Origin: Brucepastera parasyntrophica
Lineage (GTDB): Bacteria > Spirochaetota > Spirochaetia > Treponematales > Treponemataceae
Reading direction: 5' to 3'
NCBI RefSeq assembly: GCF_022376835.1
Contig: NZ_CP084606.1
Location: 2,474,501 to 2,538,500 of the forward strand
DNA length: 64,000 nucleotides
In this document: positions 18,252 to 59,935 of the stretch, piece after piece
Position numbering within the stretch: position 1 is the first letter of the stretch
Layout of the letters: each line of letters begins with the position of its first letter
Notes under the pieces: model-generated
Databases searched by the model: none
Told to the model about the DNA's origin: nothing
The model's input: only the letters and a program-made list of their open reading frames with translations
Program-made: the position numbers and the translations under genes

Positions 18252-18488
18252 TGCGGAAACCCTTCTGGTATTTTCCGCAAATACCGATTTCAGGAAATCT
18301 CAAAAGACCCGGTCGGTTTTTTGAGATTCCTCGAAGCCGGAATTTTAATTCATTGAACTGCAAAAATTAAAATTCCGGCTTCACGTTAAATCTAAGGAAG
18401 ACTTCCAAAACTTCAGTTTTTGGAAGTCCCTTTTATTATGGAAGTGTTTCTGACGTAAAAAAAAATAGTTTTTTTTTACGTCAGAAAC
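18252..18488. repeat. Cluster of five consecutive hairpins
   Basis: Five inverted repeats follow each other: 18252-18279 (8 bp), 18292-18331 (13 bp with one bulge), 18333-18382 (18-bp perfect), 18400-18428 (11 bp) and 18446-18488 (20-bp perfect, three-base loop). The last is the right-hand hairpin of the two-hairpin repeat family (GTTTCTGACGTAAA arm) and is followed by that family's TTACATTAAAGGAG tail. Confidence 0.7.
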
Positions 18489-18508
18489 TTACATTAAAGG
18501 AGTATATA

Positions 18509-18870
18509 ATGAAAAAAATCGACGTTATTCTGGAAAAATCCCTGCGATTCTCTCAAGCCGGATTTCCATTTTTATTTATGTTTTCCTTTTCGGATACCTT
18601 TTTATTTTTGCCCTTATCTGCGCTCTTGTTCCCTTTTTGCACAGTTATGCGCCGAGCAATATGACCCAGCTGATTATGGGCAATTATACAAATGTTCTGA
18701 GCGCGCTCGGAGCGTCAATTGCCGCGGGGACCGGGGCCGCGGTTCATACAAGCGTAAAAAAGCTCCACCAGAAACATGATACCCTTCAGCAGACTATACA
18801 GGCCCTGCATGAAAAAATAGAGAAACTGGAAAAGAAGAATATAAATCCTGCCGTCGGGCAGGATCAGTAA
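18509..18870 (+). CDS. Small membrane protein with C-terminal coiled coil, frame broken once
   Basis: AAAGGAG six bases before ATG at 18509 gives the start MKKIDVILEK. Adding one A to the AAAAA run at 18534-18538 leads into a frame encoding one or two membrane segments (SIFIYVFLFGYLFIFALICA, then LVPFL) and a hydrophilic tail with a coiled coil (LHQKHDTLQQTIQALHEKIE). The corrected product is about 120 residues. Only 18637-18870 is an uninterrupted stretch otherwise. No function is recognised. Confidence 0.55.
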
Positions 18871-18871
18871 T

Positions 18872-18970
18872 ATAGTCAAATAATTTAAATTACTTGACTA
18901 TTTCCGGTTGAAAGTGTTTCCGGTGTAATTAGTTAATTCTTTACACCAGAAACTTACATTAAAGAGTATA
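18872..18970 (+). repeat. Two-hairpin repeat, copy 1
   Basis: Left hairpin 18872-18901 (ATAGTCAAATAATTT arm), spacer TTCCGGTTGAAAGT, right hairpin 18916-18953 with GGTGTAA paired to TTACACC, then the TTACATTAAAG tail. It lies directly upstream of the amylase lipoprotein gene. Confidence 0.75.
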
Positions 18971-18985
18971 ACCAAGGATAAGGCA

Positions 18986-20895
18986 ATGAAAGTAAAAACT
19001 GTTTTCGGATTATGTGCGCTGTTTCTTTTTTTGTTTCCTGCCGGGCAGTCAATCCGGCGCTGAATGTTGCCGTACCTGTTCCCAACGCGGATATTCAGGC
19101 TGAGGGCCTGCCCGGATTGATGGAAAATGCCTCAATCGGATACCAGATATTTGTGCCTATTTTTGCCGATGGGGATTCCTCGAACGACGGAGCTTCAAGC
19201 GGCGATATTCAGGGAATAATAGATAATCTTGATTTTCTGAAAGATACCCTGCATATTTCGTGCCTGTGGCTGAATCCGGTCCAGAAGAGCAGCAGCTCGC
19301 TCTACGCAATTGATGACTTTTTTTCCATCAACAGTAATTTCGGGAATCTGAAAATTTATCATGAGCTTATTAAAGCGGCTCATGAGAGAGGCATATATGT
19401 CATTCTGGATCTTGTAATAAACCATACTTCAGACTTGAACAAATGGTTTACCGAGGCAGCCTCAAATAAAAATTCCCCTTACAGAAAACTGTACCGCTTT
19501 GCCGGTTCCGATGCGCAGGGCCGGTACTGGCAACCCAATCAGTTTGGTCCGGTTGATTCCAACAATACCTTTTCCGAATATTATTACGCCTACTTCGGAC
19601 TGAACGTACCTGATCTGAATTATGATAATGAAGAAACGTTTCAGCTTATGATGGATATTGCAAAATACTGGATTTCCCTTGGCGTAGACGGTTTCCGTAT
19701 AGACGCCGCCAAGCATGTTTTTACCGATCCTGATGAAGGCGAAAATCCGGCTGTGCAGAATCTGGAGTTTTTCAAACGCTTTTACCGCGAAATAAAACAG
19801 ATCAGCCCCGGCTTTTTTCTGCTGTGCGAATTATGGGATGATAATCCCGATTATATAGCCCCCTATTATGAAGGCATGGATTCCAATTTCAATTTTATTA
19901 TGCGGACAAAAATTATTGAGGCGGTAAACAGAAACACTTCTTCGCCCCTGAACAGTTTTTATTCTTATGGCGATGCGAAATTCAAAACCGTTAACCCTGA
20001 TTATGTGGATTCCGTTTTTCTTTCCAATCATGATCTGCCCAGAATACTATCGCTTCTCGGAAATGATGAAAAAAAGGCAAAGCTGGCGGCAAATATCGTT
20101 TTTACCCTGCCCGGAATAACATGGATTTACAGCGGAGATGAGCTGGGCATGAGCGGTGAAAAAATATATGAGTTCCAGCCCTATAAATGGGGAAGGGGAA
20201 AACAAAAGTATCAGACCAAATATTTTAACGTACAATGGGACGCGTATAATACCGCTCTGAAAGACCATGCCGCCCAGCTCGCGGACAGGGATTCAATGCT
20301 CCAGCATTATTCATTCTGGACAAAACTGAAATCCGAAAACCATATTCTGTCACGGGGAAATTTTTCTGACGTTTATTTTAATAACAGTCTGTATGTTTTT
20401 AAAAGAGCGTATGAAGGTGAGACCTGGCTCGTGGCCCATAATCTCACGGACACCCCCCAGCCCTTTAATTATGATCTGAAAAACGCGGATTTTGTTTTCA
20501 GCACGGCCGGGTCCCGCAAAACCGATACATCCTGTACCGTTGCCGCGATGGATACAGTCATTATCCGGCTGGGTCCCGGTTCGGCCGGCGGCGGGAATAC
20601 TCCTCCGCCCATGGGGATTACCGTTCATTTTTACGCTCCGGAAAACTGGACAGACCTCCGGACCTATACCTGGGGGACTGCCGGCGCTAAAGCCTCAAGT
20701 CCCTGGCCCGGCGATCCTATGGCGCCAGAAGGAAACAACTGGTACGGGTATACTATTCCGAATGCCCTTTCCACCAATATAATTTTCAATAACGGCGGCT
20801 CCGGAAAGGGAAACCAGACGGCTGATTTGTCCGTTTCTTCCGGTGAATGGTGGTACTATAATTCGGCGTGGTATTCATCCAATCCGCTTGAATAA
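18986..20895 (+). CDS. GH13 alpha-amylase lipoprotein with starch-binding module, frame broken once
   Basis: ATG at 18986 begins MKVKTVFGLCALFLF; adding one T to the T7 run at 19026-19032 gives a lipobox ending FFVSC, so the enzyme should be a lipoprotein outside the cytoplasm. The GH13 motifs are clear: DLVINHTS, GVDGFRIDAAKHV (nucleophile Asp), LLCELWDD (acid Glu) and FLSNHD. After residue ~520 a separate module (VHFYAPENW...PWPGDPM... WYGYTIP) resembles CBM25/26 starch-binding domains. It should cut alpha-glucans. A two-hairpin repeat precedes it. The uninterrupted stretch starts at 19012. Confidence 0.87.
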
Positions 20896-20923
20896 TATAC
20901 GTCCGGGAATGTGAAACAGAGTT

Positions 20924-20979
20924 TTTACACAATGTAATGTGTAAAGCGGAACGGTTTTTACACAAACCTGTGTGTAAAA
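20924..20979. repeat. Two TTTACACA hairpins after the amylase gene
   Basis: Two related hairpins, 20924-20945 and 20956-20979, both use TTTACACA paired with TGTGTAAA. The second has about nine pairs. They follow the amylase stop by about 30 bases and may end or stabilise its mRNA. Confidence 0.45.
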
Positions 20980-21061
20980 CAGCGGAAGCGGGACAAACAG
21001 GTTTTAACGCCCCGCCATGAATAAAAAACTGTCTTTTTCCTGAATTATGATGTACAGTTAT

Positions 21062-21168
21062 ATAGTCAAATAATCCCGCATTATTTGACTATTTCCGATT
21101 ATACGTGTTTCTGATATAAAAAATCAGTCAATTCTTTATATCAGAAACGCAACTTACATGAGTATAAC
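21062..21168 (+). repeat. Two-hairpin repeat, copy 2
   Basis: Left hairpin 21062-21092 (13-bp stem, loop CCCGC), spacer TTCCGATTATACGT, right hairpin 21107-21148 (GTTTCTGATATAAA arm), then AACTTACATGAGTATAAC. It precedes the secreted-protein gene at 21188. Confidence 0.75.
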
Positions 21169-40104: not shown

Positions 40105-40208
40105 TTATACACCTTTACTTTACGTTTCTGGTATAAAGGATTAACTGATTCTTTATATCAGAAACACGTACAATCGGAAATAGTCAAATAATTTAAATTA
40201 TTTGACTA
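40105..40208 (-). repeat. Two-hairpin repeat, copy 3 (before pyk)
   Basis: On the minus strand: left hairpin 40181-40208, spacer TTCCGATTGTACGT, right hairpin 40124-40165, then GTAAAGGTGTATAAAG ending at the pyk start codon. The right hairpin uses one G:T pair where copies 2 and 6 have A:T. Confidence 0.78.
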
Positions 40209-40378
40209 GACCTCACAAATGCAGCCAGGATAAATACAGCATTTTGAGCCGCCTTACATAAATATAAAGCATAATTATAAAAACCGGAACTTTTTTTTCA
40301 GATTTTCAGTCTTTATGCAGTCCGGAATAAAATATCTCTGTCAGAGTACGAAGGATTAGGCTCTGCCCTGAATAAAAA

Positions 40379-47336: not shown

Positions 47337-47382
47337 ATACTATAACCTTATACTATATTGATATAGTATAAGGTTATAGTAT
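47337..47382. terminator. Perfect 21-bp palindrome after the GH3 gene
   Basis: ATACTATAACCTTATACTAT... pairs perfectly over 21 bp around a TTGA loop (47337-47357 and 47362-47382). It starts 15 bases after the stop. It is A/T-rich and lacks a T tract, so a terminator or protein-binding role is inferred. Confidence 0.5.
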
Positions 47383-47463
47383 TTATACACGCCCCGGAAA
47401 TCCGGGGCATGGCGGTGCGGAATATTGTCAAATAACTTAAATTAAAGATGTATGTTATCAGTT

Positions 47464-49411: not shown

Positions 49412-50221
49412 TTATTCTGATTTTCCCAATTCTTTTGAACGTTCCCAGGCCGCGAGGGCCGATTCAATAACCGCCGAGCGGAAATTCTTTTCTTCGAGTT
49501 TTGTCACAGCGGCTATGGTAGTACCACCGGGAGAGCAGACCCTGTCTTTCAGTTCTCCGGGATGTTCATCTGTTCTGATAACCATTTCGGCCGCTCCTTT
49601 CAGGGTTTGGGCCGCGTACCGGATAGCCTGTGCGCGGGGAATTCCCATTCTGACTCCCGCGTCCGCAAGCGCTTCGATAAATATAAAGCCATAGGCAGGC
49701 CCTGAACCGGAAACGGCGGTAAACGCATCCATAAGGGATTCAGCGGTCCGTTCTGTCAGTCCCGCCGCGGAAAGCAGTCTTTCAAGTTCTTCTATGGTTT
49801 CGTCCGGGACCGCCGCATCGGGCGCGATCGCGATCATTGCCATGTTTACGGCAGCCGGCATGTTGGGCATTATTCTGATTACTTTCGGGTGCCTGTCAAC
49901 CCGTTTCTTTATATGATCAATTTTGATTCCCGCCGCCATGGACACCAGGACGGTTTCAGTATCCAGATGTCCCGAAATCTCGGCAAGCACAGGATTCAGA
50001 AACTGGGGTTTGACAGCGAGAAATACATAATCTGCGGAAGAGGCGACTTCCGCGCCGGAGCCGGCAAGCGTACAGCCTGTCCGTTCGGCAAAGTCCCGGG
50101 CCTTATCCTTATCGGAATCAAAAACAATCATTTCTTCAGCGCCTGCGACCCTGATAATCGATTCCATCAGGGCCGAACCCATTACACCCATTCCTATGCA
50201 GCCGGCTTTTTTCTTTTTCAT
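49412..50221 (-). CDS. proC: Pyrroline-5-carboxylate reductase (ProC)
   Basis: ProC makes proline from pyrroline-5-carboxylate with NAD(P)H. KAGCIGMGVMGSALMESIIR is the dinucleotide-binding motif, VRIMPNMPAAVNMAMIAI and SGSGPAYGFIFIEALADAGV and SPGGTTIAAV are the conserved C-terminal signatures. 269 residues, normal. Two-hairpin repeat copy 4 lies just upstream, between proB and proC, so proC may have its own leader. The end lies 33 bp from a convergent GNAT gene. Confidence 0.94.
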   Translation of the reverse strand: MKKKKAGCIGMGVMGSALMESIIRVAGAEEMIVFDSDKDKARDFAERTGCTLAGSGAEVASSADYVFLAVKPQFLNPVLAEISGHLDTETVLVSMAAGIKIDHIKKRVDRHPKVIRIMPNMPAAVNMAMIAIAPDAAVPDETIEELERLLSAAGLTERTAESLMDAFTAVSGSGPAYGFIFIEALADAGVRMGIPRAQAIRYAAQTLKGAAEMVIRTDEHPGELKDRVCSPGGTTIAAVTKLEEKNFRSAVIESALAAWERSKELGKSE

Positions 50222-50241
50222 GCGGATAACTCCTATTGGTT

Positions 50242-50343
50242 GTACACCTTTAAGTTATGTTTCTGGTATAAAGAATTAGCAAATTCTTTATATCAGAAAC
50301 ACTTAGAATCGGAAATAGTCAAATATTTAAATTATTTGACTAT
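50242..50343 (-). repeat. Two-hairpin repeat, copy 4 (before proC)
   Basis: On the minus strand: left hairpin 50315-50343, spacer TTCCGATTCTAAGT, right hairpin 50259-50300 with AAAGAATT/AATTCTTT, then AACTTAAAGGTGTAC. It lies between proB and proC. Confidence 0.78.
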
Positions 50344-50376
50344 AATTATGCGCTGCCCAGCCGGACCCGTATTTAT

Positions 50377-53060: not shown

Positions 53061-53417
53061 AACTAAAAATGTACTTTTATGCTTTTTTTGTCAAGGCAAG
53101 GTTTGATATATAGGCGGAATCTTCTGAAAACGAACGGTTTCGGGACGGAAATATGAAAATACGTTTTATTTCTTTACGGCACAATAAAATAGAAAACGCC
53201 TTTCTGGCGGTCTGAATATGTCCGGCCGGCACAAATTCCGCGTAAAGCCGGAATTCACGGTAAAAGTGAAAGCAAAAAGAAAAAGAGCGGTAAAAAGCAA
53301 TGTATGATGTATAACACACCATAAAAACATGCTATTATAAAAGCAATACAATGAGATATATGGTCAAATAATTTAAACTATCTGACTATATCAGAAATGT
53401 AAGGTAAAGGAGTATAT
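53061..53417. other. Intergenic region with a degenerate two-hairpin repeat
   Basis: At 53360-53415 a degenerate repeat copy is visible: TGGTCAAATAATTTAAACTA, then TATCAGAAATGTAAGG and TAAAGGAGTATAT directly before the next start codon. The rest of the region holds no gene I can support. Confidence 0.55.
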
Positions 53418-54734: not shown

Positions 54735-54843
54735 TTACGTATAGTTCTTTAATGTAAGTTTCTGATGTAAAAAATTGGTTAATTCTTTACGGCAGAAACA
54801 CATACAACCGGAAATAGTCAAAGAATTCAAATTATTTGACTAT
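54735..54843 (-). repeat. Two-hairpin repeat, copy 5 (reversed)
   Basis: On the minus strand: left hairpin 54814-54843, spacer TTCCGGTTGTATGT, right hairpin 54758-54799, then TTACATTAAAGAAC. It lies between two plus-strand genes, facing the end of the esterase gene, so it cannot be a leader for a minus-strand gene here. Confidence 0.75.
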
Positions 54844-54897
54844 ACCGGACTTTTCCGAATATTGACCATGAAATATCAAAACGGTACCTTATAATAT

Positions 54898-56377: not shown

Positions 56378-56532
56378 AACCGTACATGCCTGCCGGTAAA
56401 CGCTGATTGATACGTTCAGAATTGTTTGTTATAATTCCTGAAGGGTTTGCAGACTATGGTTTTTCAGGCGCATAGGCCTGTTTCGTCAAAAACTGTAACC
56501 ACGGAATATAATATTGTTTTTTCCACAGATAT

Positions 56533-56640
56533 ATAGTCAAATAATTAAAATTATTTGACTATTTCCGATTCTAAGTGTTTCTGATATAACGAATTAACAA
56601 ATTCGTTATATCAGAAACTAAACTTAAAGGTGTATAAAGG
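56533..56640 (+). repeat. Two-hairpin repeat, copy 6 (before the PASTA gene)
   Basis: Left hairpin 56533-56562, spacer TTCCGATTCTAAGT (identical to copy 4), right hairpin 56577-56618 using AACGAATT/AATTCGTT, then AACTTAAAGGTGTATAAAGG. The gene start is 22 bp further. Confidence 0.8.
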
Positions 56641-56661: not shown

Positions 56662-57702
56662 ATGAGTTTTTTAAAACCGGATATGGATGATCTTTCGCGG
56701 AAGCTTGAGAATAATTCCAAAACAATATTCCTGTGCGGCCTGGTCATGTTTCTTGTCACTGCGGCTGCCTGTGTAATTATTTTCTTTATTTCCCTTAAAA
56801 GCAGCGAACAGGTTATGGTCCCGGCGGTTACCGGAAAAGACCTGTCCGTCGCTATGCTTGAAATGCAGGCAAAGGAATTGTATCCGAGGATACAGCTCCG
56901 CTATTCTGACCAGCCTGAAGATAAGGGGATTATTCTCGAACAGAGTCCTTCCGCCGGGTCCATAGTTAAGGCTGGGCGGCGGATAAATCTTGTTGTCAGC
57001 AGGGGCATTATTATTGACCGTGTCGAAAATTTTACCGGCCAGAATATTGATGATGTTAAAATGCACCTGCAGGCCCTTTTTACCTCCATGTCAGTGCCGC
57101 TTCTTACTATTAAGGAGCCTGTTCTGTATCAATTCAGCACGGAACCCGCCGGAACTATTCTTGAGCAGAATCCTCCGCCGGACACTCCGATTACGGGTCC
57201 GATGCAGATGGATATGGTGGTGAGCCGCGGTCCTGAGAACAATAAAACCAGAGTTCCCGATTTAACCGGTCTTACAGTCCGGCGGACCCTGTCCGTTATA
57301 AAAGATTCCGATATTGTCTTTGATTTTTCTTCCCGGAACCCGGAAGGAAATGAACTCGCGGGTACCATTGTGTCTCAGATACCGGCGGGCGATTCTCTTG
57401 TCAATACCTTTTCCCGAGTTTCCGTTGTTATAGCATTCCCGGTCACCGCGACAGACGGAAATGTATACGGCATATTCACGGAAACCCTTCCTGATTATCC
57501 CTATCCCTTTACGATCCGGCTGGATGCAATTTCTCCGAACGGGGACCGCGCCGAACTTGTTTCGCTCAAACATCCCGGAGGGATTTTAACAATTCCCTAT
57601 GTTGTTCCCAGCGGTACTGTCCTTGCACTGACCATACTGAACAGGGAGATCAGTACCTTTGAGGTCCGGGCTCCTGCAGTTGAAGATGAAATGATGGATT
57701 AA
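56662..57702 (+). CDS. PASTA-domain membrane protein
   Basis: A short N-terminal cytosolic region is followed by one membrane segment (FLCGLVMFLVTAAACVIIFF, residues ~25-45) and three extracytoplasmic PASTA-type repeats, each with VP.. and a GxxxxxxxxL-like pattern (QVMVPAVTGKDLSVAMLEMQ; IIIDRVENFTGQNIDDVKMH; TRVPDLTGLTVRRTLSVIKD). PASTA repeats bind peptidoglycan fragments; here there is no kinase domain. It ends the def-fmt gene group and has its own repeat leader and terminator. Confidence 0.85.
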   Translation: MSFLKPDMDDLSRKLENNSKTIFLCGLVMFLVTAAACVIIFFISLKSSEQVMVPAVTGKDLSVAMLEMQAKELYPRIQLRYSDQPEDKGIILEQSPSAGSIVKAGRRINLVVSRGIIIDRVENFTGQNIDDVKMHLQALFTSMSVPLLTIKEPVLYQFSTEPAGTILEQNPPPDTPITGPMQMDMVVSRGPENNKTRVPDLTGLTVRRTLSVIKDSDIVFDFSSRNPEGNELAGTIVSQIPAGDSLVNTFSRVSVVIAFPVTATDGNVYGIFTETLPDYPYPFTIRLDAISPNGDRAELVSLKHPGGILTIPYVVPSGTVLALTILNREISTFEVRAPAVEDEMMD

Positions 57703-59518: not shown

Positions 59519-59611
59519 AAAATAAACATCTCCTTTTAATATTTGGCATATCTTCAACTATTTATTCTAATCGAGCTTTCCGTTTCGCTCAACATTTTTT
59601 TTGAATTGTTT

Positions 59612-59900
59612 CCGCTTGACCTGGTTCCGGCTATATGAATAATGGTAGAAACCGGAAAAAACGGAATGCGGTGAGAATCCGCAGCGGTCCCGCCACTGTA
59701 AGCAGTGATGAACGCGCACAGTTACCCATTGGATACCAGGGGTTTGATATATCAGATCCATTCCGAGAAGGGCGCGTGTAAAACTTCCGGAAACCTGAAA
59801 ATTGAAAAGTTTTTATGTTTCGGAGTTTTTTTTCGCAAAAACAGAATAGTATCCAGTTTTACTTTTTTGTTTTATATCTGCAAGCCAGGAGACGCTTTTC
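59612..59900 (+). ncRNA. Cobalamin riboswitch
   Basis: The core shows CGGAATGCGGTGAGAATCCG and GCAGCGGTCCCGCCACTGTA (59670-59700) and the terminal B12 box AAGCCAGGAGACG (59882-59894). The 5' side has CCTGGTTCCGG paired with AACCGGAA. A long variable A/T-rich insert (about 59770-59880) separates the core from the B12 box. The BtuB-like gene begins 42 bp later, so B12 should repress its expression. Translational control is more likely than transcriptional as no T-tract terminator is seen. Confidence 0.9.
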
Positions 59901-59935
59901 GGTAATTTAAAAGCCCGGAACCCGAGGAGGTCTCC

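Follow-up and report, generated by a model that had tools for sequence, protein, structure and literature searches.

A short, probably mobile DNA family in Brucepastera parasyntrophica and its relatives with a Shine-Dalgarno-like target and a right end placed to act as a replacement Shine-Dalgarno sequence

Miniature inverted-repeat transposable elements (MITEs) of the IS630/Tc1 type, such as the Correia- and RUP-like ones, are short and non-autonomous, with TA at both ends and TATA-rich termini. IS200/IS605 and derived elements have a hairpin near each end and a target motif on the left, and generate no longer target duplication; IS110 elements, which use a bridge RNA, have a 2-bp core common to both ends and no terminal inverted repeats, and their insertion is oriented and site-specific. 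Enterobacterial RU/ERIC-like repeats are described, at the level of abstracts, as ~100 bp long, non-coding, mobile and able to alter gene leaders (PMC2759123, PMC2229807), and the Spirochaetes have been named among the hosts of CGTC-tagged palindromes (PMC3733652). The subject here is a two-hairpin element present several times in a 64,000-nt stretch of the Brucepastera parasyntrophica genome (contig NZ_CP084606.1, positions 2,474,501 to 2,538,500; "the window"), which an initial annotation had taken for a family of structured RNAs. The element is non-autonomous mobile DNA and not a demonstrated RNA element. Its copies very probably belong to a short mobile family, MITE-like in the broad sense, that has a Shine-Dalgarno (SD)-like sequence as its target and carries a replacement SD in its right end.

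Alignment of the best matches of a whole-genome search gives an element of ~105 bp with abrupt ends, of the form TATAGTC-hairpin 1-TTCCGATTnTAAGT-hairpin 2-TTAAAGG(A/T)GTATA. Hairpin 1 (TATAGTCAAATAATTTAAATTATTTGACTAT) occupies the very left end; a conserved spacer of ~14 nt, which contains TTCC, separates it from the long hairpin 2 (GTTTCTGATATAAAGAATTAGCTAATTCTTTATATCAGAAAC); and the tail, TTAAATTAAAGG(A/T)GTATA, is the right end. Each end has a hairpin of its own and TA is present at both, although most types share only TATA when their two ends are compared by eye, short of the terminal inverted repeats by which a MITE is strictly defined. A genome-wide covariance-model search, which the initial annotation had called for, was run with a model built from 32 copies and finds ~112 non-overlapping copies in the 3,239,032-bp genome, a count of recognisable copies that omits degraded ones such as window 53359-53416; the ends are constant across the dispersed copies. 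A pattern for hairpin 2 has 101 matches genome-wide, against 6 for its reversed control. The copy at 56533 has a predicted folding energy of -38.8 kcal/mol (z = -8.9).

Movement is visible in G226, a genome from another family of the order. It carries more than 30 copies by left-end search, and most of the 28 pattern-matched copies tabulated with their flanks are nearly identical. When the joined flanks of eleven of these sites were searched in other genomes of the same genus, uninterrupted (empty) sites came to light at several insertion points in the sister genomes G211, G243 and G259. One such site, by eye a putative trpC-trpF junction, has CTCCGGGGCATATAGTG in G211 and CTCCGGGGAGTA-element-ATG in G226, where the element ends in GGAGTATA. 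Another has, in each of the three sisters, the length of left flank plus TA plus right flank. In a test for a TA target or duplication, two empty sites fit this length and TA stands at both ends; the flanks have no identity that would mark a target duplication longer than TA. Elements of this kind have been inserted recently in at least one genome whose sisters have the empty sites. The type found in B. parasyntrophica (the source genome) has the same anatomy and is presumably mobile as well; at the 56533 site, distant relatives have no element. Two side observations concern G226: some of its recent copies occupy the loop of an inverted repeat older than themselves, a placement that would fit a single-stranded or cruciform target, and one copy appears to lie inside a coding frame, so that insertion is not confined to intergenic DNA.

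Insertion is oriented, with the left end placed after a target motif, RGWRWWW. Across the 112 copies of the source genome the left flank follows RGWRWWW^ (purine at -7, G at -6, A or T at -5, purine at -4, A or T at -3 to -1), and the right flank has little motif signal. G occupies -6 in 74 of the 112; because it is kept in 49 of the 74 copies that do not abut a start codon, it is a property of insertion. Copies from other genomes have it in 43 of 80 cases. The rule is obeyed by GGAG plus three A/T bases and equally by GG(A/T)GTAT, the right end of the element itself. The TTCC of the spacer and GGAG are complementary, and it is at -7 to -4 that the spacer best complements the flank, which suggests that it may serve as a guide; for compensating changes between the two parts of the element (TTCC with GGAG, TACC with GGTG) the cases are too few.

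The right end is distinguished by what follows it. A copy is called start-abutting if a start codon that opens at least 100 codons lies at -2 to +9 nt from the tail. This holds for 38 of the 112 copies, whereas the left end has a start codon so placed in 2, and randomly chosen points nearby in 4.6%; among copies from other genomes the count is 26 of 80 at the tail, against 5. About one third of the copies thus abut a start codon with their right end in the SD position, the element's AAAGG(A/T)G sitting at the right SD distance, and often an SD-like word is found just upstream of the element: within 16 nt of the left end in 27 of the 38 start-abutting copies and in 18 of the 74 others (Fisher p = 4e-6). 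If the flanks are joined with TA, this word comes to lie 5-12 nt from the start codon, with a median of 8, the usual SD distance. Examples are aaggagattt-element-gctATG and attgaggagaaa-element-aATG. The tails of start-abutting copies are not enriched in GGAG. The TTAAAGGTGTATA tail, which the initial annotation had listed as a further motif of a structured RNA, is better understood as the element's right end doubling as a Shine-Dalgarno sequence. Elements would have inserted between SD and start codon; the right end, itself an SD, would make the insertion tolerable and the translation of the gene dependent on the element from then on. In the young G226 set a start codon already lies within 6 nt of the tail in 7 of 28 copies, so that target choice may suffice without later selection.

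The paired changes in the hairpin arms, from which the initial annotation concluded that selection has kept an RNA fold, are real, and stronger than had been claimed once other genomes are added: pairing holds in 95.3% of the cells for 23 diverse copies, two-sided changes affect 24 of the 28 stem pairs, and 0 of 500 shuffles attain the observed scores. A selected transcript fold should, however, let one-sided G-U pairs outnumber A-C. The stem mismatches of 104 distinct source-genome copies are A-C in 82 instances and G-U in 55; with A-C at least as common as G-U, neither a favoured transcribed strand nor selection for an RNA fold is seen. Beyond 30 nt from a gene start, copies face towards it and away from it in about equal numbers. 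What survives of the RNA interpretation is the palindrome-preserving family with its compensatory changes; selection on a fold, in an element that transposes, is not supported, and independent drift of the arms, which had been put forward as refuting it, is seen in part, in individual copies carrying one-sided mismatches with no wobble preference. The corresponding mechanism would be that of a cis-regulatory RNA, with two 5'-leader hairpins controlling downstream translation or mRNA stability through a selected fold and the UUCC of the spacer perhaps masking the SD. The strength of the hairpins, the paired changes across genomes, the third of copies directly before start codons and, in the G226 type, a pairing of spacer with tail in the predicted fold all agree with it. 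It is nonetheless very improbable, given A-C mismatches no rarer than G-U, orientation that is unbiased beyond 30 nt, recent near-identical copies in unrelated places, downstream genes of many unrelated kinds and the lack of any match to the element in Rfam.

The paired changes distinguish subfamilies, and one genome from another, as fits spread from palindromic founders, and the palindromes are best read as DNA features maintained in the founders that spread. A different origin of the covariation, and of the covariation only, is template switching at palindromes (quasi-palindrome correction), which needs no selection of any kind and is compatible with mobility. Intermediates are few at some pairs (A-T 64, G-C 37, two mixed) and wobble is not preferred, as template switching would have it; but many dispersed copies share the same arm variants, an indication of founder subfamilies, and single copies retain mismatches that have gone unrepaired. 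As the source of the paired changes template switching is conceivable but doubtful; it could be an added contributor.

The one-sided, oriented target and the hairpin ends point to a recombinase that probably reads one strand or uses a guide. The hairpins would be recognised by it as DNA, perhaps single-stranded, and the TTCC spacer may be the guide, pairing with a GGAG-like target and likewise with the right end (GGWG). REP/REPIN-type repeats moved by RAYT, or by an IS200/IS605 Y1 transposase, through single-strand peel-and-paste would offer such an arrangement ready-made, with hairpin ends that are not inverted repeats, a target confined to the left side whose motif recurs at the right end, and some insertions in hairpin loops. 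Against this, a Y1 domain is found neither in the source genome, a single contig, nor in G196, G177, G138, G034, G218, G203 and G276, although many carriers are incomplete metagenome assemblies; where other carriers do have Y1 genes, these do not lie between ends of the element; and the hairpins have no GTAG foot. Missing from most carriers, a Y1 transposase was rejected as mobiliser, and the REP/REPIN explanation is unlikely. Two other candidates fared no better: among 13 genomes an IS630 transposase is present only in G218, and not in the source genome, and an IS110 transposase only in the source genome. (The latter, which is without Y1 or IS630, has two IS110-type transposase genes of equal score, at 1798106 and 2856311.) Additional left ends in G226 were followed in search of an autonomous relative, and those read also proved to belong to short elements, one with a mutated right end.

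Several points weigh against a mobile family that aims at, and replaces, SD sequences. Its mobility has been demonstrated directly only for the type of the other family. An autonomous copy was not found, and the searches for Y1, IS630 and IS110 yielded no mobilising enzyme. Evidence that the tail comes under selection once inserted is not significant: tail type is not clearly different between start-abutting copies and the rest, and the start-abutting copies are not significantly older (p = 0.16). The complementarity of TTCC to the target, finally, could arise from the SD preference alone.

Searches spanning order, family and phylum find relatives of the element in 28 of 150 genomes (22 of 57 genera) of one other family of the order and in one genome of a third family, and none in the other sampled genomes of the organism's own family or in the rest of the phylum sample. 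The element is abundant in some of these treponeme relatives, many of them uncultured. The hairpin arms of the relatives are quite different (e.g., TTCCCTGACAATTT, GTTTGTCAGGCAAAG); the order of parts, the CCGATTGTAA spacer, the GG(A/T)GTATA end and GAATT...AATTC near the tip of hairpin 2 are kept. Both arm types are present in the single-contig genome G209, and the source-genome copy at 3098086-3098193 combines its own hairpin 1 with a hairpin 2 of the other family's type, GTTTGTCAGGCAGG, which suggests exchange between types; the types therefore mix across families. In a further source-genome copy, at 3201755-3201879, hairpin 1 is ~20 bases longer and retains its pairing. Viral contigs gave one chance match without the element, and none for the window's subtype.

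Within the window (Table 1) all six copies that had been judged good are present, and the three partial ones are real derivatives. That copies lie outside the integrative element also agrees with the present search, which finds none at 21.2-40.1 kb. The copy before the pyruvate kinase gene offers its tail, AAAGGTGTATA, as a candidate SD (ttgtgagg-element-aagATG). The tail AAAGGAGTATA lies 2 nt before the ATG at 18509 in the derivative with a substituted hairpin 1, and 1 nt before the ATG (53418) of the esterase gene in the larger deletion derivative. The genes downstream of copies are of many unrelated kinds.

Table 1. Copies and derivatives of the element in the 64-kb window
Feature	Position	Strand	Remarks
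Full copy (the one first noted)	56532..56636	+	120 bits; tail stops 25 nt short of the start of a PASTA-domain gene (56662-57702)
Full copy, left arm of hairpin 2 shortened	18871..18970	+	Upstream of an alpha-amylase gene (19012-20895)
Full copy	21061..21166	+	Upstream of a small gene with no assigned function
Full copy	40106..40210	-	Separates the start codon of the pyruvate kinase gene (40102) from an old SD-like word, GTGAGG
Full copy	50241..50344	-	Upstream of a pyrroline-5-carboxylate reductase gene (49412-50221)
Full copy	54740..54844	-	Tail towards the 3' end of the esterase gene, hence with no SD role
Derivative: hairpin 2 and tail intact, unrelated hairpin in place of hairpin 1	18398..18506	+	
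Deletion derivative: hairpin 1 followed directly by the 3' part of hairpin 2	53359..53416	+	Identified by eye; degraded beyond what the model detects
Remnant consisting of left end and tail fused, TATTGTCAAATAACTTAAATTAAAGATGTATG	47423..47454	+	Internal deletion; identified by eye

The hairpin that takes the place of hairpin 1 at 18398-18506 (window 18403-18435) belongs to a second hairpin repeat, TTCCAAAACTTCAGTTTTTGGAA and its relatives, which is also found within hairpin 2 of one G177 copy and flanks several G226 copies. Just upstream of the 47423 remnant, window 47339-47383 is a long, near-perfect, A/T-rich palindrome, ACTATAACCTTATACTATATTGATATAGTATAAGGTTATAGT; two TTTTACACA...TGTGTAAA palindromes lie near each other after the amylase gene (window 20917-20985). 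Ahead of that gene, a short signal-peptide-like frame (window 18986-19064) opens at 18986 and ends before the amylase open reading frame listed from 19012, a possible frameshift, natural or from sequencing. A cobalamin riboswitch (Rfam RF00174) occupies window 59606-59915, ahead of an open reading frame of 667 amino acids.

In compact genomes the survival of mobile elements mostly depends on keeping clear of genes. The present element appears to lodge in the most sensitive few bases of the leader, from SD to start codon, and to be made harmless there by its own ribosome-binding site; it provides a testable model for the recruitment of short repeats into gene control. No published description of it was found in the open-access literature searched. 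That it represents a new class of transposable element, which aims at SD-like sequences (possibly by pairing of the TTCC spacer), rebuilds the SD at its other end and is moved by a recombinase outside Y1, IS630 and IS110, is put forward only tentatively, as a proposal with somewhat less than even prospects.

Compared by description only, the element resembles the enterobacterial RU/ERIC-like repeats in size, non-coding nature and mobility; targeting or replacement of SD sequences is not mentioned in the abstracts of PMC2759123 and PMC2229807. With the REP, BIME and REPIN repeats that depend on RAYT (Y1) it has in common a high copy number, an intergenic location, palindromic and non-coding character and, probably, movement in trans; it differs from them in its length of ~105 bp with two different hairpins in a fixed order, in hairpin feet that lack a GTAG or CGTC tag (consensus, by eye) and in a source genome with no Y1 gene. 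The likeness to IS630/Tc1-type MITEs extends to shortness, non-autonomy, terminal TA and TATA-rich termini, and stops at the lack of clear terminal inverted repeats, the oriented one-sided target and the want of an IS630 transposase in the source genome and in 11 of the 12 others searched. Most carriers have no Y1 gene, yet end hairpins, a target motif on the left, the absence of a longer duplication and, if the guide proposed here exists, pairing between spacer and target all recall IS200/IS605. And although an IS110 transposase occurs, among the 13 genomes searched, in the source genome alone, the element is like IS110 in its 2-bp shared core, in dispensing with terminal inverted repeats and in its oriented, site-specific insertion.
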